Source: Nitrospina sp. (GTDB lineage Bacteria; Nitrospinota; Nitrospinia; Nitrospinales; JACRGP01). From it: a stretch of DNA of 64,000 nucleotides. Location of the stretch: assembly GCA_024648695.1 (NCBI GenBank), contig JACAVV010000005.1, forward strand, positions 248,001-312,000, given 5' to 3'. This document shows, piece by piece, positions 44,713-62,608 of the stretch. The notes under the pieces are model-generated. The model ran no database searches, was not told where the DNA came from, and worked only from the letters and a program-made list of their open reading frames with translations. The first letter of the stretch is position 1. Every line of letters begins with the position of its first letter. The position numbers and the translations under genes were made by a program.

Positions 44713-45417
44713 TCAGTTTTGGAGTACGTTGGTAGTGTTGGTTTGTCCAATTTGAATGACCGAGGCTGAATTGCCATCGCTCAATTGATCAACATAAGCT
44801 TCATGAGACACACCTTCCTGACTGACCCACGCCGAGTTATCATTTGCAAGCTGATTGATTTCCGCAATACAATTCAAACAAGTTTCCGATTCGAATCCAC
44901 CTAGATACACCTCGGCGAAATTGCCATTTCCATCCTGCACAATCAGGGCTTCGTTGCCAATTCCATCCTGGGAAATCATGGTTCCATTGTCTTCTCCAAT
45001 TTGAGACACATCCCCATAATTATCCACTCCGGTTTGATCAACATCTGCAATATTTTCCAAGCCAGAGTCTGGTGATATTTGGTCAATCCTGGCTACATTC
45101 ACTTCACCGTCCTGGGCAACATTTGCGGTATTGGCGTCACCCACCTGATCCACCACAGAACTATTGCTTTCTCCATTTTGATCGATCAATGCATTATTGT
45201 CATTACCGTCTTCGGTAATCATCACGGCATTTGCCGTCCCTACCTGGCCAACATTTGCGGCGTTATTGTCACCGCCTTGCTCCATTTGGGCAGAATTGTC
45301 ATCCCCACTTTGGTTCACATTGGCCACATTACTGGCAATAACCGAAGTAGCTGTTAAGACCAAAGTAAGGCTAATTATAAATAAAACCATCCGTTTCCAG
45401 AAAGAATTATTCATCAT
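44713..45417 (-). CDS. Curlin-repeat secreted protein A
   Basis: 234 residues, GGAG before the ATG, signal peptide ending near VIASNV. The rest is about 18 units of 11 residues (DGNDNNALIDQ, NGESNSSVVDQ, VGDANTANVAQ), the strand pattern of curli subunits, which stack as a beta-solenoid amyloid outside the cell. It contains one unit with ETCLNCIAEINQ and ends NTTNVLQN. Its signal peptide differs from the main subfamily, and it is last in the transcription order. It is preceded by a strong hairpin and a gene remnant. Confidence 0.88.
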   Translation of the reverse strand: MMNNSFWKRMVLFIISLTLVLTATSVIASNVANVNQSGDDNSAQMEQGGDNNAANVGQVGTANAVMITEDGNDNNALIDQNGESNSSVVDQVGDANTANVAQDGEVNVARIDQISPDSGLENIADVDQTGVDNYGDVSQIGEDNGTMISQDGIGNEALIVQDGNGNFAEVYLGGFESETCLNCIAEINQLANDNSAWVSQEGVSHEAYVDQLSDGNSASVIQIGQTNTTNVLQN

Positions 45418-45581: not shown

Positions 45582-45671
45582 TTAGTTTTGCGTGATAGAA
45601 CTCATGTTGCCACTACCCGATTGAGACACGACGCCGATGTTTCCAGATCCATTCTGAGTAGTTTCGGCGTT
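45582..45671 (-). pseudogene. C-terminal remnant of a curlin paralogue
   Basis: An open stretch of 29 codons reads NAETTQNGSG and SGSGNMSSITQN, then TAA at 45582. This is the C-terminal signature of the main paralogues (GNVSMITQN-like). No signal peptide or start precedes it; instead the conserved hairpin repeat at 45694 lies directly upstream, at a distance like that before intact paralogues. Most of a gene was evidently deleted. Confidence 0.75.
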
Positions 45672-45693: not shown

Positions 45694-45760
45694 CTGAACA
45701 TGGGAAGAAGCGTGAAGTGGTTTTGGGTAAACAGCGTCTTCACGCTTCCTACCTGTTCAG
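45694..45760. repeat. Curlin-locus hairpin repeat, copy 1
   Basis: Arms CTGAACATGGGAAGAAGCG and CGCTTCCTACCTGTTCAG form a long imperfect stem. Almost the same as copy 2 at 47562, including the central GTTTTGGGTAAACAGCG. Upstream of the curlin remnant. Confidence 0.85.
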
Positions 45761-45808: not shown

Positions 45809-47503
45809 CTAGTCCTGGACGATGTTGCTCACGTTGAAGCTCCCCAACTGACTCACGGCACTGTTATTTCCGGTTCCGGTTTGCATTGTGGAGGCCATAT
45901 TGTTATACCCATCCTGACCGACAGTTGCGGAATGATCGGTTCCAAGCTGGTCTATGAGGGAATCATTGCCCGGTTCGATCAAATCGCCCTGTTGATTGAC
46001 CTCGGCATAGTTCCCATCTCCATCCTGAAAAATCTCTGAATTATTGTAGCCATCCATCTGGTTTACGATCGCCGTATTTCCAAGGCCTACGCCAGACGTT
46101 GTATCAAAACCATTATCAACATAAATTCCACCCCCGGAATTTATTTGCACTATGGTTGACGCATTATTAAATCCATTCTGATCGACGGTCGCAGAATGCC
46201 CGGACCCAAGCTGGTCAACGAGGGAATCGTTACCTGGATCAATGGCATCGCCCTGTTGGGTTATGTGGGCGTAGTTGTCGGTTCCATCCTGGTAAACCTC
46301 CGAATTGTTATAACCATCCATCTGGTTCACGATCGCGGTGTTTCCAAGACCTATGGGGAAAATATATTCACTTGGGGAGTCACCTGGTAAATCTTGTATG
46401 AATAAACCTCCGCCAGTCTGGATTACTGTAGAATCGTTATTGAAACCATCCTGATCGACGGTAGCTGAATTTCCGGTTCCAAACTGGTCAACGAGAGAAT
46501 CGTTGCCTGGATCAATCCCGTCGCCTTGTTGGGTCACACCGGCGAAGTTACCGCTTCCATCCTGGTAAACCTCAGAATTGTTATAACCGTCCATCTGGTT
46601 AACGACTGCTGTGTTTCCAAAACCTCCCTCAAAAATAAAATCGCTTTGGGTGTCGATCGGAAAACCTATTATTACGAAATCACCACCGCCACCCGTCTGG
46701 ATCACTGTTGAATCATTATTGAAACCATCCTGATCAACGGTAGCGGAATGGCCGGTTCCAGACTGATCAACGAGAGAATCGTTGCCCGGATCAATCCCGT
46801 CACCCTGTTGCATCACGTCGGCGAAGTTTCCCGAGCCACTTTGATAAACCTCCGAATTGTTGTAGCCATCCATCTGGTTCACTATCGCCGTGTTCCCGAT
46901 TCCAATATACTCACTGGACCTTTCATAGGGTAAAAAGCCTCCAAAACCATCCTGTACCACTACAGAATTATTATTAAACCCATCCTGATTGACGGTAGCA
47001 GTATTACTGGAGCCCATCTGCTCTACATAAGAATCGTTGCCCGGATCCACCGCATCGCCCTGCTGGGTGACATCTGCATGGTTGAAGAACCCGCTCTGGT
47101 AAACTTCCGAATTATTGTAGCCGTCAGACTGATTGACATTGGCCGTGTTCGATTCATCCGACTGGTCCACCAACGAATTGTTGTTGAACCCATCCTGAAT
47201 GACCGTTGTCGAGTTATCGAAACCAGTTTGCATGACATTCGACGTATTGCCAGGAACAATGCTGTCGCCTGACTGGGTAACATTCGCCGAATTCATGGTG
47301 CCATCCTGGTCAATGTTTGAATCGTTGCCGTTGTCGCTCTGGTCAACATTGGCATCGTTATCGGTTCCTGATTGTGTTGCGGTCGCCATGTTGTCAGAAC
47401 CGGATTGCGTTGTGGTACTGGTGTTGCCTGCGGCGAACGCCATACTGGTTACAAATACCCCGACGGAAATCACCGAGGCCACTGCCAAAAACTGTTTTTT
47501 CAT
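45809..47503 (-). CDS. Curlin-repeat protein B (alpha type, largest)
   Basis: 564 residues, AGGAG site, signal peptide KKQFLAVASVISVGVFVTSM nearly identical to those of C, E, F, H, I, J and K. The mature chain is a series of 11-residue curlin units, organised as superrepeats with the order NQMDGYNNSEVYQDG, VTQQGD, IDPGNDSLVDQ, VDQDGFNNDSTVIQTG. Between superrepeats lie three or four non-repeat linkers rich in Phe/Ile/Pro (GGDFVIIGFPIDTQSDFIFE and similar), a feature not seen in the other paralogues. No CxxC module. It ends GSFNVSNIVQD. Follows gene C on the same strand with a hairpin repeat between. Confidence 0.92.
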   Translation of the reverse strand: MKKQFLAVASVISVGVFVTSMAFAAGNTSTTTQSGSDNMATATQSGTDNDANVDQSDNGNDSNIDQDGTMNSANVTQSGDSIVPGNTSNVMQTGFDNSTTVIQDGFNNNSLVDQSDESNTANVNQSDGYNNSEVYQSGFFNHADVTQQGDAVDPGNDSYVEQMGSSNTATVNQDGFNNNSVVVQDGFGGFLPYERSSEYIGIGNTAIVNQMDGYNNSEVYQSGSGNFADVMQQGDGIDPGNDSLVDQSGTGHSATVDQDGFNNDSTVIQTGGGGDFVIIGFPIDTQSDFIFEGGFGNTAVVNQMDGYNNSEVYQDGSGNFAGVTQQGDGIDPGNDSLVDQFGTGNSATVDQDGFNNDSTVIQTGGGLFIQDLPGDSPSEYIFPIGLGNTAIVNQMDGYNNSEVYQDGTDNYAHITQQGDAIDPGNDSLVDQLGSGHSATVDQNGFNNASTIVQINSGGGIYVDNGFDTTSGVGLGNTAIVNQMDGYNNSEIFQDGDGNYAEVNQQGDLIEPGNDSLIDQLGTDHSATVGQDGYNNMASTMQTGTGNNSAVSQLGSFNVSNIVQD

Positions 47504-47561
47504 TTCAATCTCCTGCGTATTAAAAATGTGAAAAAGTTTCTAAACGAATTCTGTTCAAAAG

Positions 47562-47628
47562 CTGAACATGAGAAGAAGCGTGAAGTGGTTTTGGGTAAAC
47601 AGCGTCTTCACGCTTCCTACCTGTTCAG
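47562..47628. repeat. Curlin-locus hairpin repeat, copy 2
   Basis: Same arms and centre as copy 1 with one change (CATGAG for CATGGG). It lies 59 bases upstream of the start of gene B. Confidence 0.88.
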
Positions 47629-47779
47629 ATTTTTACTCTAAAGGACGGGTTATGGATCACCCTCACCTGAATCCTCTCCGGCCAGGGGAGAGGGTGAACA
47701 CCCCAAGTCAGACTTTAGTCTGCATTTGCGGAACACGGGCAAAGCGAAACTAACCGCCCTTTCCTGCGACCGTGGGCCG

Positions 47780-49066
47780 CTAGTTTTGTGTGATCAGGCT
47801 CACGTTGTTACTTCCGGACTGGGCAACAAAACTTGAGTTACCCCCACCGTTTTGAGTGGTCACCGCCAAATGCCCATCGCCTTCCTGGTGAATGGATCCA
47901 ATATGCCCACCGTCATCGTTCTGTTCCACGGTGCCGTCACAGGAATTACAATCGGCCAGGTCATTACCCTGAATGACGAACGCATCATTTTCATCGGAGT
48001 TTTGATCGATGAAGGCCGTGTTGCTTTGGCCCCACTGCTCAATTTCTCCAAAATTCAGTTCTTTGCCATTCTGGTCAACCGTGGCATGATTCAACTGGCC
48101 CACCTGCGTGATATTGGCAATGTTCAATACCGCCGGACCTGATTGATCCACAAACGCCATATTACTCGGAATGCTCAACTCGTCAGGGTCACCACTCTGG
48201 GTCACGTTGGCGTCGTTCACTTCTCCGTCCTGATCCACGTCCGCAAAATTCGCTTTATCCTCTTGATTGACGTAGGCGAAGTTGGCCAGGCCATCCTGAT
48301 TGACATCGGAAAGGTTTTCGGCTCCGTTTTGAGTCACGTTCGCCTGATTGGATTCTCCATCCTGAACAATAAATGACTGATTGCTGGGTGGAATGGTATC
48401 GAACAATTCTCCGCTTTGATGCACCGTAGCAATATTGCCCACACCCATTTGATCGATATCCGAAATGCTCTCGGCATCTTCCTGGGTAACATTGGCTTCG
48501 TGAAGCTCACCGTCCTGATTCACACTTGAATCATTATTGAAGCCGTTTTGGTCCACAGTGGCCGTATTGTCGACACCGAACTGGTCTACGTAAGAATTGT
48601 TTCCGGGAAGAACCGTGTCGCCCTGTTGCGTTACATAGGCCATATTACCGGAACCATCCTGATTGACATCCGAATTGCTGTAGCCATCCATCTGGATCAC
48701 ATCTGCGATGTTCCCGTCACCCAACTGACTCACAGTAGAAGTGTTGTTGAAACCATCCTGATTGACCGTCGCATCATGGTTCGCTCCATCCTGACCCACC
48801 AGAGATTCGTTACCAGGAACAATGCCGTCGCCCGCCTGCGTCACATCGGCCATGTTGTCATCGCCATTCTGGTCAATTTCCGAATTGTTGCCGTTGTCGC
48901 TCTGGTCCACAACGGCATCGTTGTTATTGCCAGTTTGAACCGTGGTGGCTGTGTTGGCGAAACCGCTCTGCGTGGTGGTACTGGTGTTGCCGGCCGCAAA
49001 GGCCAAGCTGGTGACAAACACCCCGACCGAAATAACGGAAGCCACTGCCAGAAATTGTTTCTTCAT
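47780..49066 (-). CDS. Curlin-repeat protein C (beta type)
   Basis: 428 residues with AAGGAGG before the ATG and the shared signal peptide. About 35 curlin units. Beta-type modules are present: GDTVLPGNNS, GELFDTIPPSNQSFIVQDG, QNGAENLSDVNQ and DPDELSIPSNMAFVDQSG. Near the C-terminus is the module DCNSCDGTVEQNDDGG with CxxC, followed by HEGDGHLAVTTQNGG-type units and the end NNVSLITQN. These modules are shared with F, I and J. It is the first gene after a 700-base gap, so it may start a transcript with B and A. Confidence 0.93.
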   Translation of the reverse strand: MKKQFLAVASVISVGVFVTSLAFAAGNTSTTTQSGFANTATTVQTGNNNDAVVDQSDNGNNSEIDQNGDDNMADVTQAGDGIVPGNESLVGQDGANHDATVNQDGFNNTSTVSQLGDGNIADVIQMDGYSNSDVNQDGSGNMAYVTQQGDTVLPGNNSYVDQFGVDNTATVDQNGFNNDSSVNQDGELHEANVTQEDAESISDIDQMGVGNIATVHQSGELFDTIPPSNQSFIVQDGESNQANVTQNGAENLSDVNQDGLANFAYVNQEDKANFADVDQDGEVNDANVTQSGDPDELSIPSNMAFVDQSGPAVLNIANITQVGQLNHATVDQNGKELNFGEIEQWGQSNTAFIDQNSDENDAFVIQGNDLADCNSCDGTVEQNDDGGHIGSIHQEGDGHLAVTTQNGGGNSSFVAQSGSNNVSLITQN

Positions 49067-49715
49067 GCTAAACCTCCTTCATTTGATTGAAAAAATCTAA
49101 CGATCTTCATCATTTAGAGCTTTTGTTCCCTTAAGCCGAATGAATACCAAAATACGAACAAGACATTTAAAGCTCCAGCCTCACTGTCTTCATGCGAACA
49201 ATTTCACGTTACCGCTACAAGAGGGAAACACATTACGCGCATCATTCGATCCGGAATTCATTTCACAGAAATCAGAAACTGGATAACCATTCCATACACC
49301 ATTTCTGTGGTATTAAAAAATCTAAACTATTTCATTAGATCGAAACTGCTCCAGCAACAAAAAGTTTTCTCAATGAGCTAAGTTATGCTTGGTTAAAATC
49401 GATCAATACTCAATATTGATTGAACTTTTATATAGTTAGCAAAAATACAGATATTTAATCGGGTCTATTATAAGCAATTTCAACTCCGCTTAATATACCC
49501 TTTTTGGGGTGTTTTTTTAAAATTATTTTAAACTCTTTAACTTCCCAATTTTCAACGTCTTTCATACCGTTGACAGGGTATAAATTCTCATTTAACCGGA
49601 TTTTTTATATCTATTCTTGCTTTGCTGACTTGTGGACCGGAAAAAGAGGAGGGGGTAAAAGGATAAAATTTTAAAGCTTTCTTCACTTTCAGCCAAAATT
49701 GCAATGGTCCATAAA
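49067..49715. promoter_or_regulatory. Long AT-rich region upstream of gene C, with shared motif
   Basis: No gene seen. At about 49492-49512 lies ATATACCCTTTTTGGGGTGT, a short inverted ATACCC/GGGGT motif in an AT-rich background. Similar motifs lie at about 50554-50575 upstream of gene D and at 54172-54194 upstream of the G remnant. A promoter or operator for the curlin transcripts is likely but not proven. Confidence 0.45.
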
Positions 49716-49755
49716 AAAAAGACCCGGCTACGCTCTGCAACAAGCGTAGCCAGGT
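49716..49755 (-). terminator. Terminator of curlin gene D
   Basis: Stem GGCTACGC (49726-49733) with GCGTAGCC (49744-49751), extended by GACC/GGTC across one mismatch, with an eight-A run on the left (T-run on the minus strand). Confidence 0.85.
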
Positions 49756-49769
49756 CCGGAATCAAACCA

Positions 49770-50246
49770 TTATTGAGCCTGACAACTTGAACAGGGCTCT
49801 CCGCCACCTTCATGACCGAACCAGTCCTGATAGGTGTGACTCACATTATTACTACCACTCTGGCTTACGTAGGCTGAATTGCCCTCATCCGCCTGATAAA
49901 CAGACGCGCTATTATTTTCGCCATCCTGCATAATGCCAGCAGTGTGGTCGTTGCCCCATTGCATTACATTCGCATAACAACTGTCGCATTCACCCGGCAA
50001 TTCGCCGCCTTGATACACATCAGCGGTGTTACCATAGCCATCCTGGATGATGTCGGTTTCGTTATAATCACCATCCTGCATCACCATCGAATGGTTACCA
50101 CTGCCCGCTTGTTCAATCTGTGCGATATTTTCATTGCCTTCCTGATCCACATCCGCGGTGTTGCCAGGGGGAATAGCATATGCAACGCTGGCACTCAACA
50201 TTCCAGCAAAAAATAAGGCCGCCATCACTTTGATTCCTTGTTTCAT
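49770..50246 (-). CDS. Small curlin-repeat protein D
   Basis: 158 residues from the ATG at 50246, which follows AAGGAG; the open frame extends to 50348 without support. Signal peptide KQGIKVMAALFFAGMLSASV. Nine or ten curlin units (DQEGNENIAQIEQAGSGNHS), then a unit with GECDSCYANVMQWGND. The C-terminus differs from the others: after NNVSHTYQ comes DWFGHEGGGEPCSSCQAQ with a second Cys pair. It sits alone between a promoter-like region and its own terminator. It may be a cap, nucleator or anchoring subunit (inference). Confidence 0.9.
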   Translation of the reverse strand: MKQGIKVMAALFFAGMLSASVAYAIPPGNTADVDQEGNENIAQIEQAGSGNHSMVMQDGDYNETDIIQDGYGNTADVYQGGELPGECDSCYANVMQWGNDHTAGIMQDGENNSASVYQADEGNSAYVSQSGSNNVSHTYQDWFGHEGGGEPCSSCQAQ

Positions 50247-50742
50247 CTCATTGCTCCTTATGTGAAATTGAAATAAAAAAATTTCTAAACCAACTTCGTT
50301 CAAAAAAAACTGAACCCATGATAAAGCACAAATGGAAACTTGACTCATAAAGCCCTATTACCATGTATGCAGTATAAAAATTAGAAAATACACACTACTA
50401 ATAACCAGATTAAACAAAATATAAAATTTGATTAATTTTCAACTGCCTTTGAATCCAAATCAATTAAGTCATTATTTATATTGAATTTTTAAAACTTTAT
50501 GAATTGATATTTCAGGATTCGCTATTAGGTTAAGTGATTTCACCAATATTATATATACCTCTAAAAGGGTATTTTTAAAAAATTTTAATTAAACCTTTAA
50601 GTTATTATCTTTCAAGAGGTTCAGGTCAAGGCGTTGAATTCAGGGCACCGGTTATTATCGGATTTATGATACGGGTCCGCGGATTAGCGGTTTCGGATAT
50701 AAAAGTGGAGAGATGTGGGAGGTTTTGCATCTTTTATGGATA
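50247..50742. promoter_or_regulatory. AT-rich region upstream of gene D with shared motif
   Basis: The motif ATATATACCTCTAAAAGGGT (about 50553-50572) followed by ATTTTTAAAAAATTTTAATT resembles those upstream of C and G. A degenerate piece of the hairpin repeat (GTTCAAAAAAAACTGAACCC, about 50300) is also seen. No gene. Confidence 0.45.
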
Positions 50743-50783
50743 AAAAAAATGGAAGTGAACACGGGAACACCGCATCCATTTCC
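50743..50783 (-). terminator. Terminator of curlin gene E
   Basis: Arms GGAAGTG-AAC and CCGCATCCATTTCC form an imperfect stem, with an A-run on the left. Nearly the same sequence terminates gene H (54583-54623). Confidence 0.7.
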
Positions 50784-50840
50784 ATAAAATTCAGTACAAA
50801 AAACAGCCGAGGCCAAAAATTTCCGGCAGACGTCTCCGAC

Positions 50841-52181
50841 TTAGTTTTGGGTGATCATGCTCACATTGCCGGCACCTGACTGGAATACCGCACTGATATT
50901 TCCCAATCCATTCTGCGTGGTGACTGCCAGGTTGGTGTCGCCATCCTGAGTGATGGATGCAGTGTGGCCGCCATCATCATTCTGCACAACAGTCGCGTCA
51001 CAAAAGGAACAAGGGATGCCGCCAAAGCCTTGATCAATATTTGCTGTGTTGTCATCGGAGTTTTGATCCACGAAGGCAATGTTGTGGTCGCCTATCTGAT
51101 CTATGTCTCCATAATTCGTGACGACTCCCTCAATCTGCTCAATGCTGGCAATGTTTAAACCTCCCACTTGATAAACATCAGCGCTATTTGAGGTTCCATC
51201 CTGGTCAACAAACGAATCATTGTTGTAGCCATCCTGAATCACATCGGCGGTGTTGGATGCGCCTGCCTGAAATACCGTGGATACGTTACCCGGTTCAATC
51301 AGGTCGCCCATTTGCATCACGTTGGCTGTATTTGAACTGCCAGACTGCCCTACCAGGGAACTGTTATATCCATCGAACTGATAAACCGCCGCAGTGTTTC
51401 CTGATGCCGTTTGATCCACTTCGGAACTGTTATTGAAACCATCCTGGGTCACCGTCGCTGTGTGATCCCCTGTTCCCGATTGGGTGATTATAGAATCATT
51501 CCCTGGATCCACTCCATCGCCACTTTGTGTCACCGCGGCTGTGTTTAGAGAACCGGCCTGGTCTACGAAGGAACTGTTGTATCCATCGGACTGAGTCACC
51601 GTCGCCTTGTTAATCAAGCCCGCTTGATCCACTTCAGAACTGTTATTGAAACCATCCTGGGTTACCTTCGCCATATTAAAACCCTCTCCCGATTGTGTGA
51701 CTATAGAATCATTCCCCGGATCGACTCCATCTCCGCTCTGCGTCACTGTGGCTGTATTAAAATTTCCACCCACCTGCTCTACGAATGAACTGTTGTACCC
51801 ATCGGACTGCGTTACTGTTGCAGTGTTGAACCTGCCAGTTTGATCCACATCAGAAATGTTATTGAATCCCGCTTGATCTACCGTCGCGGTGTGATCATCA
51901 ACTTTCTGAGATACTAGGGATTCATTGCCAGGGGCAATGAGGTCGCCACTTTGAGTGACATCGGCATTATTGTCTGTTCCGTCCTGATCAATATTTGAGG
52001 TATTGTCCGCATCGCTTTGATCAACGATGGCTTCATTATCCATTCCCGCCTGAGTCGTGGTTGCTACTTGCCCGGTACCCGTTTGCGTGGTGCTACTCAT
52101 ATTTCCTGCCGCAAAGGCAACGCTTGTTACAAACAGACCTGCTGAAATAACCGAGGCCACTGCTAAAAATTGTTTCGTCAT
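50841..52181 (-). CDS. Curlin-repeat protein E (alpha type)
   Basis: 446 residues with the shared signal peptide (TKQFLAVASVISAGLFVTSV). Superrepeats of about 70 residues: VTQSDGYNSSFVEQ, VTQSGDGVDPGNDSIVTQSG, VTQDGFNNSSEVDQ, repeated about three times. Then a GDLIEPGNVS unit, the variable units DVYQVGGLNIASIEQIEG, the CxxC module PCSFCDATVVQNDDGG and the end GNVSMITQN. Directly downstream of F with a hairpin repeat between; its terminator is nearly the same as that of H. Confidence 0.92.
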   Translation of the reverse strand: MTKQFLAVASVISAGLFVTSVAFAAGNMSSTTQTGTGQVATTTQAGMDNEAIVDQSDADNTSNIDQDGTDNNADVTQSGDLIAPGNESLVSQKVDDHTATVDQAGFNNISDVDQTGRFNTATVTQSDGYNSSFVEQVGGNFNTATVTQSGDGVDPGNDSIVTQSGEGFNMAKVTQDGFNNSSEVDQAGLINKATVTQSDGYNSSFVDQAGSLNTAAVTQSGDGVDPGNDSIITQSGTGDHTATVTQDGFNNSSEVDQTASGNTAAVYQFDGYNSSLVGQSGSSNTANVMQMGDLIEPGNVSTVFQAGASNTADVIQDGYNNDSFVDQDGTSNSADVYQVGGLNIASIEQIEGVVTNYGDIDQIGDHNIAFVDQNSDDNTANIDQGFGGIPCSFCDATVVQNDDGGHTASITQDGDTNLAVTTQNGLGNISAVFQSGAGNVSMITQN

Positions 52182-52225
52182 CTGACGTACCTTTTATTCA
52201 AAAATCTTAATCAACTGCTATAAAG

Positions 52226-52282
52226 CTGAACATGAGAAGAAGCGTGAAGTGATTTCAGACCTCACGCTTCCTACTTGTTCAG
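52226..52282. repeat. Curlin-locus hairpin repeat, copy 3
   Basis: CTGAACATGAGAAGAAGCG and CGCTTCCTACTTGTTCAG arms with a shorter centre than copies 1 and 2. 45 bases upstream of gene E. Confidence 0.85.
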
Positions 52283-52494
52283 ATATTTTAAAAATAAAGA
52301 TCAAAGGAATGCATCCCCCTGACCTTCCTTAATATCTTTATAAGAAATGCCAAGCTATGCTTGGTGCTAAGCTAGGCGCACCCTGCCCTCTCCCGCCAGG
52401 GGAGAGGGTGTGTGGATGCTGTAAAACTTTAATCTCGCCTCTGGGCGAGGGAGCGAAGCGACCCCAGCCCAAGTTTCCTGCAGGCGTCGCCTGC

Positions 52495-53781
52495 CTAGTT
52501 TTGGGTGACCATGCTGACGTTGCCGCTTCCGGACTGGGAAACCGCACTGATGTTGCCACCACCGTTTTGAGTCGTCATCGCCAGGTGACCGTCACCCTCC
52601 TGATTGATGAGGGCGTCGTGTCCGCCATCATCGTTTTGCTCGATGGTGGCATCACAAGACATACAATCCATGCCTTCATGGCCCTGATTGATTTCTCCAA
52701 TGTTTTCATCAGAGTTCTGGTCGACAAAGGCCAGGTTGCTTTGACCCCACTGGGTGATGAATCCATCGTTCACTTCCTTGCCATTCTGGTCGATGGTAGC
52801 TTCGTTCAACTGGCCGACCTGATTGATGTTAGCCAGATTCAAAACAGCCCCACCCGTCTGATTAACAAAGGCCAGGTTGCTGGGAATGCTCAACTCGTCG
52901 GGATCGCCACTCTGGTTCACATTGGCTTCGTTGACTTCACCTTCCTGATCGATATCGGCCCAGTTAGCCTTGTCCAACTGCGTAACATTTGCCAATTGCG
53001 CCAGGCCGGACTGATCCACAAAGGACTGGTTTTCAGCGCCATTCTGGGTCACATTCGCTTCACTGGATTCACCCGTTTGAGAGATGTATGAACGGTTGCT
53101 TGGAGGAAGCGTATCGAACAGCTCTCCACTCTGATGAACGTTGGCGAGGTTGCCGACATTGGTCTGATAAACATCCGAGAAACTTTCGCCATCTTCCTGT
53201 GTCACATTCGCTTCGTTGAGTTCACCATCCTGATTAACGACAGAATCATTATTGTATCCATCCTGCACAACGTTCGCGGTGTTAACTACACCCAACTGAT
53301 TCACAAAAGAATCGTTGCCGGGATCTACAGTGTCCCCACCCTGGGCGACACTCGCACTATTAGCGAAACCATCCTGATCCACGTCGGAAGCATTGTATCC
53401 ATCGGTCTGGCTTACCGAAGCGAGGTTGCCATCGTCCATTTGGGATACATCAGAAACGTTGTTGTAACCGTCCTGACCCACCGTGGCTTCGTGGCCCTCA
53501 CCACTTTGGGTGATGTTGGAATCATTGCCCGGATCAAAAATATCACCCATTTGATCCACATCGGCAAAGTTGCTGGCACCATCCTGATCAATGTTGGAAT
53601 TGTTATAAGCATCACTCTGATCAACGGTGGCATCATTGAAGTCACCGGCCTGAGTGATTGTAGACATCTGGCCTGTACCCGACTGAGTCGTGGTGCTGGT
53701 GTTGCCCCCTGCGAAGGCCATACTCGTCACGAATACGCCCACTGAGATTACGGAGGCTACTGCCAGGAATTGTTTTTTCAT
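52495..53781 (-). CDS. Curlin-repeat protein F (beta type)
   Basis: 428 residues from the ATG at 53781, preceded by AAGGAG; the frame extends to 53814 without support. Same length and module order as C: shared signal peptide, IFDPGNDSNITQ, GDTVDPGNDS, GELFDTLPPSNRSYISQTG, QNGAENQSFVDQ, DPDELSIPSNLAFVNQTG, DCMSCDATIEQNDDGG and the end GNVSMVTQN. The 3' flank (CTGCAGGCGTCGCCTGCCTA) is shared with gene H, a trace of sequence exchange between paralogues. Confidence 0.93.
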   Translation of the reverse strand: MKKQFLAVASVISVGVFVTSMAFAGGNTSTTTQSGTGQMSTITQAGDFNDATVDQSDAYNNSNIDQDGASNFADVDQMGDIFDPGNDSNITQSGEGHEATVGQDGYNNVSDVSQMDDGNLASVSQTDGYNASDVDQDGFANSASVAQGGDTVDPGNDSFVNQLGVVNTANVVQDGYNNDSVVNQDGELNEANVTQEDGESFSDVYQTNVGNLANVHQSGELFDTLPPSNRSYISQTGESSEANVTQNGAENQSFVDQSGLAQLANVTQLDKANWADIDQEGEVNEANVNQSGDPDELSIPSNLAFVNQTGGAVLNLANINQVGQLNEATIDQNGKEVNDGFITQWGQSNLAFVDQNSDENIGEINQGHEGMDCMSCDATIEQNDDGGHDALINQEGDGHLAMTTQNGGGNISAVSQSGSGNVSMVTQN

Positions 53782-53853
53782 GGTCAATCTCCTTATTCTG
53801 ACTTTAAAATGCATTTAAAGATTTTCATCGTATTAGACCTCTTCCGCTTAAAG

Positions 53854-53926
53854 CTGAACAGGAGCAGAAGCATGAACGGTCACCTGAATTGCAATGAGTT
53901 CGCTCTTCCAACTTGCACAGCTTGTT
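53854..53926. repeat. Degenerate curlin-locus hairpin repeat, copy 4
   Basis: Starts CTGAACAGGAGCAGAAGCAT like the other copies, but the second arm is eroded. Between the G remnant and gene F, the same relative place as the others. Confidence 0.5.
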
Positions 53927-53930
53927 GAAA

Positions 53931-54054
53931 TTAATCTTCGTGACCGTGCCAATCCTGAAACGTGGAAGTGCTGTTACCGCCAGCAAACGCAACACCAGAG
54001 GTCAACATGCCAGCCATTAACAATACGGTCATGGATTTAAAATAGTTTTTTCAT
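53931..54054 (-). pseudogene. Curlin remnant G: signal peptide joined to C-terminal tail
   Basis: After TGGAGTG and the ATG at 54054 the sequence encodes MKKLF, then one extra T shifts the frame. Corrected, it continues KSMTVLLMAGMLTSGVAFAG, a signal peptide like that of gene D, and goes directly to GNSTSTFQDWHGHED and a stop. That ending matches the DWFGHEG tail of gene D. All curlin units are missing. It looks like an internal deletion of a D-type gene followed by a frameshift. An in-frame ATG after the shift could still give about 36 residues. Confidence 0.75.
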
Positions 54055-54333
54055 TTTTCACTCCATTAGAAAAAAAGCTTAAAAATAAAAAAGCTTTTCT
54101 AACGTTAAACTTCTTAAAAAATTAAATGATAATATTTCAGCCTATGGTTTATGTTAAGAAATTTTTACTTTTTTATATATACCTCTTATGGGGTATTTTC
54201 AATAATATTTAATAAATAATATAACTTACTATTTTTCAATAGTTTATAAATTTCAAATACCCCATACATTCAAGCTATTTTCAGAACTCTGATGTATCCT
54301 TTTTAATAAACCCATTTGAGGTTATAAAATCAC
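54055..54333. promoter_or_regulatory. AT-rich region upstream of the G remnant
   Basis: Contains TATATATACCTCTTATGGGG followed by TATTTT at about 54172-54196, the same motif as upstream of C and D. No gene. Confidence 0.4.
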
Positions 54334-54530
54334 GTAGGTTGGGGTGAGGAATGAACACAACATTATAGATGTCGCCTTTTAATAACCATCTGTTTCCTGG
54401 AAACGAATATAGACGATCTTGCCGGGATTTGGTTTTCGGGGAGGCCTTCGTTTTGATTCGTATGGGATTTTCCGGGTTGACCTTTTTCTACGGCAAACAA
54501 TGTTGGGGTTCGTTCCTCACCCCAACCTAC
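54334..54530. mobile_element. MITE-like element with 32-base inverted ends
   Basis: GTAGGTTGGGGTGAGGAATG (left, from 54334) pairs with CATTCCTCACCCCAACCTAC-type sequence (right, to 54530); arms of about 32 bases with two or three mismatches. 197 bases in all. Open frames inside have no recognisable product, although NNHLFPGNEYR recalls the start of small REP-type transposases. It is inserted between the terminator of H and the upstream region of G. Confidence 0.65.
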
Positions 54531-54582
54531 AAAACTGGAAAACATATTCGTTGCTCTGAAGGGGGAATTGGAATTTTTCCCA

Positions 54583-54623
54583 AAAAAATGGAAGTGAACG
54601 CGGGGTTAACCGCATCCACTTCC
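54583..54623 (-). terminator. Terminator of curlin gene H
   Basis: GGAAGTG-AACGCGG and CCGC-AT-CCACTTCC arms, with an A-run on the left. Nearly the same as the terminator of E. Confidence 0.85.
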
Positions 54624-54705
54624 AAAAAATTTTCTAACCGGATTTAACCTAAAGGCGCGGGAGCAAAGCGACCCCAGCCGCAAGCTTCCTGCAGGCGTCG
54701 CCTGC

Positions 54706-56259
54706 CTAGTTTTGCGTGATCATGCTGACGTTGCCGGTACCGGACTGGGATACTGCACTGACATTACCCAAGCCGTTCTGGGTGGTGACCGCCAGGTTAG
54801 TGTCGCCATCCTGAGTGATTGTAGCCATGTGGCCACCATCATCATTCTGCTCAACGGTCGCGTTACAAAAGGAACAACCGGAAACTGATCCCTGATCGAT
54901 ATCCGCCATATTGTTTGCAGAATTCTGATCAACAAAGGCTGTATTGTTATCGCCTATCTGATCAATCGTTCCTTCGTTATCATCACCGCCAATCTGCTCA
55001 ATATGGGCATCATTCAAACCACCTTCCTGATACACTGCCGCATCATTCACTTCATCATCTTGATCAACGAATGACACATTGTTGAAACCATCCTGGGTCA
55101 CCGTCGCGGAACCATTATTTCCAACCTGAGATACAATGGAATCGTTACCAGGATCCACGGCATCGCCACTTTGAGTCACGGTCGCAGTGTTTATTTCACC
55201 CGATTGCACCACTAAGGAAGCGTTATATCCATCGGTTTGGTTCACCGTCGCCTCGTTACCAATATTCGATTGATCCACATCAGAACTGTTATTGAAACCA
55301 TCCTGAGTCACCGTCGCAGAGTGGAAACCGGTTCCCCCTTGCGTTACTACAGAATCATTGCCGGGATCCACCCCATCGCCGCTCTGAGTCACGATGGCTG
55401 TATTGCCACCACCACCCGCCTGGTCCACGTCGGAGGTGTTATAGCCATCGGACTGAGTCACCGTCGCGGTATTACTACCTCCACCCCCCTGGTCCACATT
55501 AGAACTGTTATTGAAACCATCCTGAGTCACCGTCGCCGTGGAACCAGCTCCACCACCTTGCGTTACAATGGAATCATTCCCCGGATCCACCCCATCGCCG
55601 CTCTGCGTCACTGTCGCTGTACCACCGCCACCACTGGACTGACTCACGACCGAAGTGTTATACCCATCGGATTGGGTTACCGTCGCTGTGGCACCACCTG
55701 ATGACGTCTGGTCGACATCAGAACTGTTATTGAAACCATCCTGAGTCACCGTCGCCGTGGAACCTACTGACGATTGCGTTACCATAGAATCATTTCCGGG
55801 ATCCACTCCATCGCCGCTCTGTGTCACTGTTGCGGTGTGACCAAATCCATCCTGTTCTACAAACGAGGTGTTGTAACCATCCGACTGGTTCACCGTTGCA
55901 TCGTTACTGATTCCAAACACTTGGTCGACATCAGAACTGTTATTGAATCCCGCCTGGTCTACGGTCGCGGTGCCGGATTCTCCCAATTGAGTTACCGTAG
56001 AATCGTTACCAGGGGCGATGAGGTCGCCGCTTTGAGTGACATCGGCGATATTGCTCACTCCGTCCTGATCAATGTCAGACGTATTGTTCGCATCACTTTG
56101 ATCGACGGTGGCATCGTTGAGGTCGCCTGCTTGGGTTATCGTGGACATTTGGTTCGTACCCGTCTGGGTCGTGGTGGCGGTATTGCCTGCAAACGCTATG
56201 CTGGTCACAAACACGCCGACCGAAATGACGGAGGCGACTGCGAAAAATTTTTTATTCAT
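54706..56259 (-). CDS. Curlin-repeat protein H (alpha type, Gly-rich turns)
   Basis: 517 residues, AGGGAG site, shared signal peptide (NKKFFAVASVISVGVFVTSI). Four superrepeats with GDGVDPGNDS or GDAVDPGNDS, VTQDGFNNSSDVDQ and VTQSDGYNTS. Several turns between units are enriched in glycine (QGGGAGS, QGGGGSN, SSGGGGT), unlike E, B or K, which could change fibre packing. CxxC module VSGCSFCNATVEQNDDGG and the end GNVSMITQN. Paired with I upstream via hairpin copy 5. Confidence 0.92.
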   Translation of the reverse strand: MNKKFFAVASVISVGVFVTSIAFAGNTATTTQTGTNQMSTITQAGDLNDATVDQSDANNTSDIDQDGVSNIADVTQSGDLIAPGNDSTVTQLGESGTATVDQAGFNNSSDVDQVFGISNDATVNQSDGYNTSFVEQDGFGHTATVTQSGDGVDPGNDSMVTQSSVGSTATVTQDGFNNSSDVDQTSSGGATATVTQSDGYNTSVVSQSSGGGGTATVTQSGDGVDPGNDSIVTQGGGAGSTATVTQDGFNNSSNVDQGGGGSNTATVTQSDGYNTSDVDQAGGGGNTAIVTQSGDGVDPGNDSVVTQGGTGFHSATVTQDGFNNSSDVDQSNIGNEATVNQTDGYNASLVVQSGEINTATVTQSGDAVDPGNDSIVSQVGNNGSATVTQDGFNNVSFVDQDDEVNDAAVYQEGGLNDAHIEQIGGDDNEGTIDQIGDNNTAFVDQNSANNMADIDQGSVSGCSFCNATVEQNDDGGHMATITQDGDTNLAVTTQNGLGNVSAVSQSGTGNVSMITQN

Positions 56260-56329
56260 TACTAATCTCCCTATTAGAAAAATTAAACCTTAAAATTTTT
56301 AAACCGTGTCATCGGTCACCGCCCATAAG

Positions 56330-56386
56330 CTGAACATGAGAAGAAGCGTGAAGTCATTTCCGATTTCACGCTTCCTACTTGCTCAG
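56330..56386. repeat. Curlin-locus hairpin repeat, copy 5
   Basis: CTGAACATGAGAAGAAGCG and CGCTTCCTACTTGCTCAG. 70 bases upstream of gene H. Confidence 0.82.
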
Positions 56387-56526
56387 TTTTTTAACTATCA
56401 AGATTTAAAGGAATCATCCCCTTTGACCTTCCTTAAAATGTTTATAAGGGAATACCAAGCTTTGCTTGGTCACCCTGCCCTCTCCCTCCAGGGGAGAGAG
56501 GGAGTGCTTCCAACGGCCGTGGGCCG

Positions 56527-57891
56527 CTAGTTTTGTGTGATAATACTTACGTTGTTACTTCCCGTCTGATAAACGGAACTACTGTTGCCAATGTCGTTCT
56601 GAGTCGTTACAGCAAGGTGGCCATCACCTTCCTGATTGATCGTCGCAAAATGGTCACCACCGTCATTTTGCTCAATCGTCGCATCACAGGAAAAACAATC
56701 AGGCACTTCTTCACCACCCTGATAGATAGCCGCATAATTTCCATCCGAGTTTTGATCAACAAGTGCTGTATTGCTTTGCCCAATTTGAGTGACAAAACCC
56801 TCATTATCAAACTGACCTTCCTGCTCCACGCGGGCAAAATTCAACTGGCCAAACTGGACAATTTCGGCCAGATTTTCTTCTGCGCTACCAGTCTGGTCCA
56901 CTTGCGCGATGTTACTGGGAATGCTCAACTCGTCGAAGTCACCACCCTGGGAAACGAAAGCAGTGTTTGCATAACCCACCTGGTCAATGTCTGAAGAATT
57001 TGCCAGATTGGACTGAAAAACGGTGGCATCATTTAAATCACCATCCTGATCAACGTGAGACAGGTTTTCCGCTCCATCCTGAATGACCAGTGCCGTATTT
57101 CCAGCTTCATCAGAATGCTGAGTAACATAAGACCGATTGCTGGGAGGGATGGTATCGAAAAGCTCTCCCCTCTGCTCAACTGTAGCGTCGTTTCCAAAAC
57201 CCGTCTGGGTAACTTCAGATATACTTTCCGAGTCTTCTTGCAATACTGAGGCCGAGTTGCCAATCCCGTCCTGCGTTACGGTCGAATCGTTATTGTAACC
57301 ATCTTGCGTAACATCTGCGGTGTTGAACTCTCCAAACTGATCCACAAGGGAATTGTTTCCCGGATGAACCGTATCACCAGACTGATTCACTGTGGCTGTG
57401 TGACCAAAGCCACTCTGATTGACATCAGAAGTGTTGTAGCCATCGTTCTGGGTAACAGTAGCTTCATTGTCATCAAATTCCTGGTCCACGGTTGAAACGT
57501 TATTATAACCATCCTGGGTCACAGTAGCATCATTTCCGATACCACTCGTCTGACTTACTGTCGAATCGTTACCAGGATCAAAAATGTCACCGCTCTGGGT
57601 AACAGTAGCGGTATTTGAAGCTCCATCCTGGCCTACGGTAGAGGTATTGTACGCATCACTTTGAGTGACGTTTGCTTCGTTAAAACCACCATCCTGGTCA
57701 ATGGTAGAGGTATTATTCGCATCACTTTGATCGACGGTCGCTTCGTTGTCCGTACCCGCCTGTGTAGTCGTTGCCATTTGACCGGTACCTGTTTGTGTGG
57801 TGGTACTTATATTGCCGCCTGCAAAGGCAACACTGGTGACAAACACACCCACCGAAATGACGGAAGCAACTGCTAAAAATTTATTTTTCAT
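56527..57891 (-). CDS. Curlin-repeat protein I (beta type)
   Basis: 454 residues, AAGGAG site, shared signal peptide. Beta-type modules: GDTVHPGNNS, GELFDTIPPSNRSYVTQ, QDGAENLSHVDQ, DFDELSIPSNIAQVDQTG and DCFSCDATIEQNDGGD; ends SNNVSIITQN. Longer than C, F and J by about two units near the N-terminus (AYNTSTVGQDGASNTATVTQ). Its 3' flank (CGGCCGTGGGCCGCTAG) is shared with gene C. Confidence 0.93.
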   Translation of the reverse strand: MKNKFLAVASVISVGVFVTSVAFAGGNISTTTQTGTGQMATTTQAGTDNEATVDQSDANNTSTIDQDGGFNEANVTQSDAYNTSTVGQDGASNTATVTQSGDIFDPGNDSTVSQTSGIGNDATVTQDGYNNVSTVDQEFDDNEATVTQNDGYNTSDVNQSGFGHTATVNQSGDTVHPGNNSLVDQFGEFNTADVTQDGYNNDSTVTQDGIGNSASVLQEDSESISEVTQTGFGNDATVEQRGELFDTIPPSNRSYVTQHSDEAGNTALVIQDGAENLSHVDQDGDLNDATVFQSNLANSSDIDQVGYANTAFVSQGGDFDELSIPSNIAQVDQTGSAEENLAEIVQFGQLNFARVEQEGQFDNEGFVTQIGQSNTALVDQNSDGNYAAIYQGGEEVPDCFSCDATIEQNDGGDHFATINQEGDGHLAVTTQNDIGNSSSVYQTGSNNVSIITQN

Positions 57892-57947: not shown

Positions 57948-58003
57948 CTGAACATGGGAAGAAACGTGAAGTTTTTTCAACCTCACGCTTCCCACTTATT
58001 CAG
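57948..58003. repeat. Curlin-locus hairpin repeat, copy 6
   Basis: CTGAACATGGGAAGAAACG and CACGCTTCCCACTTATTCAG. 57 bases upstream of gene I. Confidence 0.82.
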
Positions 58004-58081: not shown

Positions 58082-58092
58082 AAAGGTTCAAA

Positions 58093-59382
58093 CTAATTTT
58101 GCGTGATCATGCTGACGTTGTTGCTACCCGTCTGGGAAACAAAACTGAAATTGTCTCCGCCGTTTTGAATGGTTTCAGCAAAATGCCCATCACCTTCCTG
58201 ATGGATAGCACCCGAATGCCCACCGTCGTCGTTTTGCACAACGGTACCGTCACAGGAATTACAATCCGCCAGGTCATTACCTTGAATGACAAATCCATCA
58301 TTGTCATCAGCGTTTTGATCGATGAATGCTGTGTTGCTTTGCCCCCACTGATCAATGTCTGCAGTGTTACCATCTTGACCATTCTCATCAATTCTGGCTT
58401 CATTCAACTGGCCTACCTGCTTGATATCGGCAATGTTAAAATCTGCTCCGCCGGTTTGATCTACATACGCACGATTACTTGGAATGCTCAGCTCGTCAAA
58501 ATCCCCGCTCTGGAAAATGTCGGCGTCATTAAATTCACCGTCCTGATCGATATCAGCAAAGTTGGCCAAGTCTGTTTGACTGACAAATGCTATGTTTTCC
58601 GACCCGTTCTGATTGATATCAGAAAAGTTTTCCGCCCCATTCTGCTCAACAAATGCGCCATTGGAATCTCCATCTTGAACGATAAACGACTGGTTGCTGG
58701 GCGGAAGGCTATCGAAGATTTCACCTCTTTGATCAACATCGGCCAAATTACCAGTTCCCGCTTGATCGATATCCGAAACGTTTTCGCTGTCTTCCTGGAC
58801 CACCATTGCATCGTTTAGTTCGCCTTCCTGGTCTACATTCGAATCATTATTAGGACCATTTTGATAAACGTCAGCGAAGTGCCCGCCAAACCCGGACTGG
58901 TTGACTACAGAATTATTACCGGGAGAAATCGTATCCCCTTGCTGAGTCACATAGGCTTCGTTATCATCACTGGTTTGATTTACTTCAGACGTGTTGTATC
59001 CATCGCTCTGAGTCACTTCTGCAATATTCCCGCTATCCATTTGCAAAATATCGGAATCGTTATTGAAGCCATCCTGATTTACGGTTGCACTGTTGTCTAT
59101 ACCATCCTGAACCACGCTGGAATCATTGCCCGGAACAATGCTGTCCCCGGACTGAGTCACATCGGCAACATTACTGGTACCAAATTGATCGATTTCGGAA
59201 TTGTTACCATTATCACTTTGGTCAACAGTCGCATCATTAAAGTCCCCTGTCTGGCCGATCGCCGAAGAGTTAGCAAAACCACTCTGGGTCGTGGTGCTGG
59301 TGTTGGTGCCTGCAAATGCCATGCTGGTGACAAAGACGCCTACAGAAATGACAGATGCTACTGCTAAAAATTGTTTCTTCAT
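58093..59382 (-). CDS. Curlin-repeat protein J (beta type)
   Basis: 429 residues, AAGGAG site, shared signal peptide. Same module order as C: GDTISPGNNS, GEIFDSLPPSNQSFIVQDG, QNGAENFSDINQ, DFDELSIPSNRAYVDQTG and DCNSCDGTVVQNDDGG; ends SNNVSMITQN. The CxxC stretch is nearly the same as in C (DLADCNSCDGTV), closer to C than to its neighbour I. Confidence 0.93.
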   Translation of the reverse strand: MKKQFLAVASVISVGVFVTSMAFAGTNTSTTTQSGFANSSAIGQTGDFNDATVDQSDNGNNSEIDQFGTSNVADVTQSGDSIVPGNDSSVVQDGIDNSATVNQDGFNNDSDILQMDSGNIAEVTQSDGYNTSEVNQTSDDNEAYVTQQGDTISPGNNSVVNQSGFGGHFADVYQNGPNNDSNVDQEGELNDAMVVQEDSENVSDIDQAGTGNLADVDQRGEIFDSLPPSNQSFIVQDGDSNGAFVEQNGAENFSDINQNGSENIAFVSQTDLANFADIDQDGEFNDADIFQSGDFDELSIPSNRAYVDQTGGADFNIADIKQVGQLNEARIDENGQDGNTADIDQWGQSNTAFIDQNADDNDGFVIQGNDLADCNSCDGTVVQNDDGGHSGAIHQEGDGHFAETIQNGGDNFSFVSQTGSNNVSMITQN

Positions 59383-59440: not shown

Positions 59441-59496
59441 CTGAACATGGGAAGAAGCGTGAAGTTTTTTCAACCTCACGCTTCCTGCTTATTCAG
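59441..59496. repeat. Curlin-locus hairpin repeat, copy 7
   Basis: CTGAACATGGGAAGAAGCG and CACGCTTCCTGCTTATTCAG. 59 bases upstream of gene J. With copy 6 it shares the adjoining GAGAAGAGCGATTAAA. Confidence 0.85.
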
Positions 59497-59585: not shown

Positions 59586-61184
59586 TTAGAACTGCGTTAC
59601 AGAACTCACATTGCCGCTACCGATTTGGCCAACACTACTTGCATTGCCGGAACCGAACTGAGTGGTTTCTGCAAAGTTGGTGTCACCATCCTGAGTGATG
59701 TCAGCTGAGTGGCCACCGGCATCGGTCTGCATGATGTCCGCATCGTTGAAACTTCCGGTCTGGAAAACGTCACCGAAACTACCTACTCCGGACTGATCTA
59801 CGTATGAGTCATTATTAAATCCGTCCTGGGTCACCAAAGCTCCGTTGCTTTCATCGATCTGCGTTACCAGAGATACGTTGCCAGGCTCGATCAAATCGCC
59901 ACCCTGGAACACATCGGCCGTGTTGGAAGTCCCGCCCTGCAATACGGTGGAGGAATTATAGCCGTCAATCTGAAATACAGAAGCAAAGTTACCAACATCC
60001 ACCTGATCGATGAATGAATCATTGTTAAATCCATCCTGAATCACCAAAGCTCCGTTGCTTTCACCCGCTTGATAGACTTCCGAATTGTTTCCAGGATCAA
60101 TTCCATCGCCGCTCTGGAACACATCGGCAGTGTTATCGGTTCCACCTTGAACGACCAGAGACGCGTTGTAACCATCGGTCTGGAATACAGAAGCAAAGTT
60201 ACCTGTATCCACTTGATCAACAATCGAATCATTGTTAAATCCATCCTGAGTCACTATAGCTCCGTTACTTTCACCCAATTGGAAGACATCCGAATTGTTT
60301 CCGGGATCAATTCCATCACCACCCTGAAACACATCTGCAGTGTTGCTCAACCCATCCTGAACGACTGAAGAAGAGTTGTAACCATCGGTCTGGGAAACAG
60401 AGGCAAAGTTACCTGTATCCACTTGATCAACAATCGAATCATTGTTAAATCCATCCTGAGTCACTATAGCTCCGTTACTTTCCCCTAATTGAAACACATC
60501 CGAGTTATTTCCTGGAACGATTGCATCGCCACCCTGAAAAACATCGGCGGTGTTGCCAAGGCCATCTTGAAGAACGGTCGAAGAGTTCCCACCATCGATT
60601 TGTGTGACCAATGCCGTATTGCCCGTATCAAACTGTTCGATTAAAGAGGAATTATTAAAACCATCTTGAATCACAAAAGCTCCGTTAGCTTCACCCACCT
60701 GGGAAACTGTGGAATCGTTTCCAGGCTCAACCGCATCGCCACCCTGGAACACATCGGTGATATTGCTGGTTCCATCCTGAAAAACCGTAGAAGTGTTATA
60801 GCCATCCAACTGAACTGCGGTTGCGGCATTTCCCTCACCATATTGCTCAACCAGAGATCCATTGTTAAAGCCATCCTGTACAACCGTCGCTCCATTGAAA
60901 TCACCGTCCTGCAAAATATCGGAATCGTTACCCGGATCGATCAAGTCGCCTTCCTGAAGGACATCCGCCGTGTTACTTTCTCCGGTTTGATCAATAGTGG
61001 ACGTGTTGTTGGCATCGTTTTGTTCAACAACGGCATCGTTGAAGTCACCAGTCTGTGTCGTGGTGGACAACTGGCCCGTTCCCGTTTGCGTCGTGGAGCT
61101 GGTGTTTCCTGCCGCAAAGGCTATGCTGGTGACAAATACGCCTACCGATATTACCGAAGCTACTGCTAAAAATTGCTTCTTCAT
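59586..61184 (-). CDS. Curlin-repeat protein K (alpha type)
   Basis: 532 residues from the ATG at 61184, preceded by TTAGGA; the frame extends to 61265 without support. Shared signal peptide. Six superrepeats of 70 residues: VFQGGDGIDPGNNSDVFQLG, ESNGAIVTQDGFNNDSIVDQ and NFASVSQTDGYNSSSVVQDG. Some copies are identical over 80 bases. It lacks CxxC but keeps the following QTDAGGHSADITQDGDTNFA; ends GSGNVSSVTQF. It has no hairpin repeat upstream. Confidence 0.92.
   Translation of the reverse strand: MKKQFLAVASVISVGVFVTSIAFAAGNTSSTTQTGTGQLSTTTQTGDFNDAVVEQNDANNTSTIDQTGESNTADVLQEGDLIDPGNDSDILQDGDFNGATVVQDGFNNGSLVEQYGEGNAATAVQLDGYNTSTVFQDGTSNITDVFQGGDAVEPGNDSTVSQVGEANGAFVIQDGFNNSSLIEQFDTGNTALVTQIDGGNSSTVLQDGLGNTADVFQGGDAIVPGNNSDVFQLGESNGAIVTQDGFNNDSIVDQVDTGNFASVSQTDGYNSSSVVQDGLSNTADVFQGGDGIDPGNNSDVFQLGESNGAIVTQDGFNNDSIVDQVDTGNFASVFQTDGYNASLVVQGGTDNTADVFQSGDGIDPGNNSEVYQAGESNGALVIQDGFNNDSFIDQVDVGNFASVFQIDGYNSSTVLQGGTSNTADVFQGGDLIEPGNVSLVTQIDESNGALVTQDGFNNDSYVDQSGVGSFGDVFQTGSFNDADIMQTDAGGHSADITQDGDTNFAETTQFGSGNASSVGQIGSGNVSSVTQF
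60193..60482. repeat. 210-base tandem repeat inside gene K
   Basis: The 80 bases 60193-60272 recur without a change at 60403-60482, offset exactly 210 bases (70 codons). The unit recurs with more divergence across about 59.88-60.96 kb, which indicates recent expansion by unequal exchange or slippage. Confidence 0.9.
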
Positions 61185-62062: not shown

Positions 62063-62608
62063 TCAATCTTTACTCGATTGCGTGATGGTCACGGTTTTAC
62101 CGTCTTCTTTAATGACCACCGTTTCCATGTTGCCGCTACCGGTTTGTGAGTGCGTGACGGTATTGTCATCGCCTTCATGAATCGCGGTGGCGATGTTGTT
62201 ATCGCCATGCTGGCTTTGAACAACTTCGTTGCCGCTTCCTTCCTGCTCCACAAGAGCCACGTTGTTTTCTCCGGTTTGGGTTTGAATGGCAACATTTCCA
62301 CCCCCGCCGGATTGACGGATCACAGCCCGGTTGCCACTACCACGGGAGGCTCTTTCCTGCCTGCGTTTTTCACGCATTTCTTTCATTCGTTCTCTCATAG
62401 CTTTTATCCTTTGACTCCGCCGTTCCTTGCGGTCCGAGGAATCGCTCTGGGTGATGACCGCCGAGTTGCCTGAACCGTTCTGGACGATCTCTGCCGAGCT
62501 GTCACCTTCGCTTTTGATGACAGCCGAATTAACGGCAAAAGCCAACCCACCTGAAAACAGGGTGAGGCTGGCGATTGCGGTCATGGTTTTCATGACTGGA
62601 TACTTCAT
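62063..62608 (-). CDS. Curlin-repeat protein M with charged helical insertion
   Basis: 181 residues, AAAGGAG site, signal peptide (TAIASLTLFSGGLAFAV). Two or three curlin units come first (IVQNGSGNSAVITQS), then a strongly charged, probably helical stretch at about 57-89 (KERRSQRIKAMRERMKEMRE), then seven or so curlin units (TQTGENNVALVEQEGSGNEV). The end is VTITQSSKD. The basic helix in a fibre protein is unusual and could bind a surface, polysaccharide or DNA. It starts 20 bases after the stop of N, in the same operon. Confidence 0.88.
   Translation of the reverse strand: MKYPVMKTMTAIASLTLFSGGLAFAVNSAVIKSEGDSSAEIVQNGSGNSAVITQSDSSDRKERRSQRIKAMRERMKEMREKRRQERASRGSGNRAVIRQSGGGGNVAIQTQTGENNVALVEQEGSGNEVVQSQHGDNNIATAIHEGDDNTVTHSQTGSGNMETVVIKEDGKTVTITQSSKD

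Follow-up and report, generated by a model that had tools for sequence, protein, structure and literature searches.

Why some bacteria hold a dozen curli subunits and E. coli two is a question raised by the 64,000-nucleotide (nt) stretch of DNA analysed here (the window), which corresponds to C1:248001-312000 of the 4.2 Mb draft genome of a Nitrospina sp. An array of curlin-repeat genes spans 44.7-63.7 kb of the window on the minus strand, where all of the array features located below also lie, and comprises 13 intact genes and two remnants. In order of transcription these are N, M, L, K (alpha-type), J (beta-type), I (beta), H (alpha), the remnant G*, F (beta), E (alpha), D (small), C (beta), B (alpha), a second remnant and A. 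A preliminary description that ended at position 57891 proposed that a three-gene cassette, running beta, alpha, small, was duplicated as a block and then altered by local gene conversion. Its observation is largely right, and its mechanism is right in kind and wrong in unit and timing. Block homology and relative divergences indicate that the youngest duplicated stretch in the array begins behind the beta gene and consists of spacer, alpha gene, terminator, putative operator and small gene, present once as I>H-G* and once as F>E-D (X>Y denotes the spacer between genes X and Y).

Taken as a whole, the best explanation, which we regard as likely, treats the locus as a curli-type (type VIII secretion) fibre-subunit array. 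All 13 intact genes score above the gathering threshold of Curlin_rpt (PF07012), and their products range from 158 to 564 amino acids (aa). Each protein opens with a signal peptide, followed by curlin repeats that are predicted to form a beta-solenoid; the AlphaFold (AF2) model of C is all-beta, with a predicted local distance difference test (pLDDT) value of 85 and a predicted template modelling (pTM) score of 0.85. The subunits probably leave the cell through a CsgG pore, whose gene lies apart from the array, and would polymerise extracellularly. The genes csgE, csgF and csgG are found on contig C23, apart from the array on C1; PF03783 and PF10614 score above cut-off at these export genes, while the NCBIfam CsgE, CsgF and CsgG models match them below cut-offs that are tuned to E. 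coli. Separated subunit and export operons are on record in a survey of curli systems (Dueholm et al. 2012, PMC3521004), so adjacency to csgEFG is not required of curli subunit genes. Among 36 genomes of the order, CsgF occurs in eight. Other curlin genes of this genome are dispersed over C1 (+33 kb), C3, C16, C39, C55 and C56.

The loci stand on the minus strand in the order that the preliminary description gave, I-H-G*, F-E-D and C-B-remnant-A, all of them encoding Curlin_rpt proteins, and the modules it saw shared between them are there. The beta genes C (47780..49066), F (52495..53781) and I (56527..57891) have in common a mid-module with 'PPSN.S' and 'DELSIPSN', and the alpha genes B (45809..47503), E (50841..52181) and H (54706..56259) a superrepeat of 70-91 aa, which in B is 91 aa long. 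The small gene D (49770..50246), which encodes 158 aa from its likely start, ends in DWFGHE. Its counterpart G* (53931..54054) is a 124 bp remnant in which the signal peptide is fused directly to a DWHGHED tail and whose reading frame is broken close to its start. The terminators after H (54582..54624, intrinsic) and E (50742..50784, a terminator-like hairpin), described as nearly the same, are homologous (z=14.6 against shuffles). The families do not end at 57891, as had been supposed: J (58093..59382, beta) and K (59586..61184, alpha, with a 70-aa superrepeat) also belong to them.

Comparison of the region with itself reveals the collinear blocks that a multi-gene duplication predicts. In local alignments, I+21..H884 matches F+81..E878 at 70% over 1163 bp, H501..+20 is collinear with E291..+20, F with both of its flanks matches C at 68% over 1460 bp, and J matches C at 72% over the whole gene. 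The promoter regions of the small genes G* and D match at 72%. The beta>alpha spacers are homologous across all three units (z=26 to 51), and the L>K spacer is not homologous to them. What separates these blocks in age is the silent-site difference (pS), which ranks ages only roughly because silent sites are near saturation (fully randomised sites are expected at about 0.90) and which codon bias could lower unevenly. E and H, which form the youngest pair, differ at a pS of 0.61 (0.55-0.67) that is even along the gene (p=0.61), whereas I and F differ at 0.81 (0.74-0.87), an interval without overlap; the beta genes thus did not travel with the duplicated stretch. The other beta comparisons give 0.77 for C-F and 0.70 for C-J, C being the nearest relative of J. 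The nearest relative of I is Q39, a beta-type gene on contig C39, at a pS of 0.60. Contig C39 breaks off inside Q39 (L006 7587-8302), and further curlin copies may sit in the assembly gap at its end. B is remote from both E and H (0.81 and 0.76) and lacks their terminator. The beta genes would accordingly be older than the spacer-alpha-terminator-operator-small stretch, and the array would have grown by several old, overlapping duplications that included spacers, terminators and operators. The sole recent event inside it concerns two spacers: C>B and B>A share an 89-nt stretch at 98% identity.

Part of the original proposal holds, namely that a multi-gene block was copied, as the collinear I>H-G* and F>E-D attest; joint copying of beta, alpha and small genes is not supported. 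If one beta-alpha-small block had been copied whole (I-H-G, F-E-D, C-B-A), a later conversion must have replaced the beta gene of I or F and made it look older. This account agrees with the collinearity seen in spacers, alpha genes, terminators and small genes and with the homology of the beta>alpha spacers in all three units, and the likeness of I to the dispersed Q39 is what a donor-driven replacement would leave. Such copying requires, however, an additional replacement that ends exactly at I+21, and F-C and I-C are also near saturation, no beta pair within the array being as young as E-H. It also falters on the third unit, which is without the terminator, a close alpha gene and a D-type small gene. 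That unit does share its beta gene and the spacer that follows it, and the small gene does not recur: A (44713..45417, 234 aa) is not of the D/G* type and has no DWxGHE tail, so that C-B-(remnant)-A is no clear third copy. The remnant between B and A (45582..45671) derives not from a small gene but from a curlin gene of alpha/beta type, of which it preserves the final 29 codons (..NMSSITQN); the third unit was therefore C-B-X, not C-B-small. We consider copying of the whole block improbable.

The spacers bear on a further alternative, in which genes were copied singly and the likeness of their spacers comes from dispersed repeats inserted between them. The CCCTCTCCCC part of the F>E spacer does recur at about 20 genomic sites, and the 51 nt that directly follow F also have matches at C22 and C19. 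These dispersed copies likewise weaken the 3' flanks shared by F/H and C/I, which had been offered as a sign of conversion and are weak evidence for it. Region 81-272 of the F>E spacer nonetheless aligns with I>H for 192 nt at 81%, farther than any match outside the array. The hairpin between genes is moreover confined to the array, and the likeness of E and H continues across the terminator and reaches part of the small gene's promoter region. Single-gene copying is for these reasons very hard to credit, and duplication of a stretch that runs from spacer to small gene is preferred. The dispersed element itself, CCCTCTCCCC..GGGAGAGGG, is a short spacer element that lies at 52375-52494 in the window in addition to its roughly 20 other places.

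Superimposed on these duplications is a conflict between the two ends of the genes. In the tree of the 5' module (codons 1-114, DNA), {B,C,J,P16} is split from {E,F,H,I,K} with support 94/97, and a clade of the beta genes C, F, I and J is rejected by the approximately unbiased (AU) test (p=0.034). In the 3' module the same beta genes are set apart from E and H, with E+H at 96/94 and C+J at 97/98 (both starred). On the preliminary description's own refutation test, whether beta genes group apart from alpha genes, the outcome is therefore split between the two ends of the gene, and a conflict of this kind is predicted by exchange of gene portions. Recombination between paralogues would have swapped 5' or 3' portions and made each gene a mosaic, the direction of the exchanges being an inference. 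P16 (L005 7584-9287, on C16) is a natural alpha/beta hybrid, with alpha-like superrepeats in front, beta-like 3' modules and two operators upstream. The local gene conversion of the preliminary description thus finds support in the module trees; inside the window array it is old or weak.

Besides the near-saturation of silent sites, several points weigh against this overall explanation. The AU test rejects the beta clade at a modest 0.034, and the split in the 5' module lacks a star. Sliding-window scans of pS in 28 gene pairs yielded no conversion tract that survives correction; the best candidate, the 3' end of C-J, stands at p=0.012 raw and 0.34 corrected for the 28 pairs. Among the genomes compared there is no close relative with the same array (four genomes of the same family, all incomplete, contain no match to it), so that the order of events cannot be polarised, and a fold search of the PDB returned no significant match.

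Selection on the exported amino-terminal region, in place of recombination, could also be held responsible for the conflict between modules. The signal peptides are almost invariant as protein (difference at amino-acid-changing sites, pN, 0-0.13) and differ at pS 0.46-1.02; recent conversion of the window signal peptides is rejected by these saturated silent sites, and their likeness is held by selection, which alone suffices there. The split of {B,C,J} from {E,F,H,I,K} rests, however, on shared variants past the signal peptide. In related genomes, furthermore, identical DNA is restricted to the 5' halves, which selection on protein cannot produce. We find it doubtful that selection accounts for the conflict.

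These relatives are five genomes of the same order and another family (G006, G009, G011, G015 and G021) with comparable curlin arrays. Their arrays open with orthologues of N and M wherever the start is covered, and csgE, csgF and csgG are adjacent or close by. Recent conversion is unmistakable in two of the species, G006 and G009, where it affects only the 5' halves of the first and third curlin genes (L032 9590-13967 and L033 7205-11719). In G006, a1 and a3, with a2 between them, share an identical run of 534 bp, and their pS is 0 over codons 41-160, compared with about 0.4-0.8 across the 3' half. At matching positions of b1 and b3 in G009, the 5' half has a pS of 0.08-0.28, which contrasts with 0.5-0.75 beyond it. 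The pairs a1-b1 and a3-b3 are diverged along their whole length, so the 5'-half conversion occurred separately in G006 and G009. G021 gives a weak sign of conversion at most. In the trees of both modules, the paralogues of the window form one clade and those of the relatives another (100/99 and 100/98), so that the arrays expanded, or were homogenised, separately. A search for related loci among named genomes gave one distant Rhizobium match alone.

How such an array is read can be judged from the elements between its genes. A hairpin, CTGAACA..GGAAGCGTGA..TCACGCTTC..TGTTCAG, is present in the spacers K>J (59441..59496), J>I (57948..58003), I>H (56330..56386), F>E (52226..52282), C>B (47562..47628) and B>remnant (45694..45760), the last inside the 89-nt stretch shared with C>B, and a half copy is present in G*>F. 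Nothing similar was found elsewhere in the genome, and a genome-wide mobile repeat is therefore rejected; an intrinsic terminator is unlikely, as no T-run follows the hairpin. Within a unit, most neighbouring genes are separated by a hairpin; the units themselves are separated by terminators, including one after D (49713..49757). This placement delimits the units operator-N-M-L-K-J-I-H-terminator, operator-G*-F-E-terminator, operator-D-terminator and operator-C-B-(remnant)-terminator, followed by A. On the evidence of these operators and terminators, a working unit would follow the order operator-small-beta-alpha-terminator. The hairpins would likely segment or stabilise a long mRNA. In G006, G009 and G021 the spacers between subunit genes (L032, L033 and L044) also hold strong hairpins (z -2.7 to -6.4), unrelated in sequence to those of the window, and the spacer between M and the first subunit gene holds no strong one (z about 0).

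The putative operator in these units is a palindrome, ATACCYN6RGGTAT, found upstream of G* (54179..54196, ATACCCCATAAGAGGTAT) and of D (50555..50572, ATACCCTTTTAGAGGTAT). Two operator-like palindromes precede C (49495-49512 and 49564-49581), the nearer one with TATAAT downstream. With at most one mismatch and within 1.0 kb upstream, the palindrome occurs at N (2), C (2), C1:346108, C16 (2), C55 and csgEFG. When G*, D and C are omitted, seven of the 45 genome sites fall in about 7 kb of upstream DNA, for which the chance estimate is <0.1. The genome as a whole shows no excess, with 45 sites against 46 for the reversed pattern; the palindrome is unusual in its placement alone and not in its total number. 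A TATAAT follows about 22 nt downstream at N, C, C1:346 and C55, and no clear one lies at that distance at D and G*. In the relatives the spacing is 24-25 nt, and G006, G009 and G021 also carry the palindrome upstream of N.

At N, C, C1:346 and C55 the palindrome constitutes a 7-2-7 inverted repeat at activator distance from the -10 box. The NarL heptamer of E. coli is TACYYMT (PMC4886647), a 7-2-7 site engineered for high affinity reads TACCCCTAAAGGGGTA (PMC4549865), and NarL activator sites lie at -40 to -49 in napF and -38 to -47 in yeaR (PMC4549865, PMC4886647). The window palindrome shares with these sites the inverted TACCCC..GGGGTA halves and differs from them in that the genes beneath it are matrix genes and not genes of nitrate respiration. 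Its form matches a NarL-type site, and we treat it as a putative operator. Four sites of the draft genome (G000), at C23:98393, C23:41903, C7:87804 and C5:34273 (L036, L040, L042 and L043), place the palindrome before csgEFG, before a GGDEF-PilZ protein, before a Wzz/sugar-transferase operon and between alginate-export-like and FG-GAP proteins. The GGDEF-PilZ, Wzz and alginate-export-like/FG-GAP sites were noticed post hoc and stand outside the statistics. The shared palindrome suggests a possible biofilm-matrix regulon.

N (62629..63735), the first gene of the array, encodes a curlin protein with a His/Asp-rich insert and scores above cut-off for NCBIfam CsgB, and its orthologues head the relatives' arrays. 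M (62063..62608), the second, encodes a short curlin protein with a basic insert and also has an orthologue in the relatives. Comparable inserts occur in some of the relatives' orthologues of both. L (61290..61976) encodes a curlin protein of 228 aa. The cysteines of C, E, F, H, I, J, A and D (window 44713-59382) are all in CxxC pairs, two of them in D, and B and K have no cysteines. In the alpha and beta genes the pairs lie near the C-terminus, where they occupy the GxxN position of a curlin repeat turn. They might serve as a disulfide cap, which is a guess. Curlin proteins of the relatives have CC pairs near the C-terminus.

Together these features raise the idea that the array is a subunit-diversifying system. 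Recombination would keep the 5' halves alike, so that all products are exported and co-stack, and leave the 3' halves free to diverge, while all units would stand under one NarL-type switch common to csgEFG, diguanylate cyclase, exopolysaccharide and adhesin genes. We regard this idea as unlikely. If it were true, nitrate/nitrite or a signal linked to cyclic di-GMP (c-di-GMP) would govern the make-up of a mixed amyloid matrix. On the question why some bacteria hold a dozen subunits, the array and its relatives offer three handles: half-gene conversion with sharp borders, spacer hairpins that recur without sequence homology, and a single operator that may link the subunits to export, exopolysaccharide and c-di-GMP genes. 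Literature searches for curli in Nitrospinota/Nitrospinae and for conversion among csgA paralogues turned up nothing relevant.

A comparison with known curli systems shows how much of this is shared. Multi-copy arrays are an established type: in a survey, counts of CsgA copies per genome tail out to 14 and reach 30 at most, and each protein carries 4 to 62 repeats (Sleutel et al. 2023, PMC10192328). Like such systems (PMC3521004, PMC10192328), the genome studied here has PF07012 repeats, signal peptides, csgE/F/G and several subunit genes. In contrast to them, its 13 subunit genes form one array that is divided into operator-led units; most neighbours within a unit are set apart by a hairpin, cysteines are paired near the C-terminus, and the export genes lie on another contig. 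The csgBAC/csgDEFG system of E. coli likewise combines subunits with CsgE, CsgF and CsgG, and N scores above the CsgB cut-off; the E. coli subunits are about 150 aa long, compared with 158-564 aa here, where they are not beside csgEFG. A further parallel is found in the five relatives, whose arrays start with N and M orthologues and, in G006, G009 and G021, have the same palindrome upstream of N and hairpins between the subunit genes that follow. They differ in forming a separate paralogue clade, in the adjacency of csgE/F/G and in recent 5'-half conversion. The array type is already known; the shared palindrome and the inter-gene hairpins are new leads.

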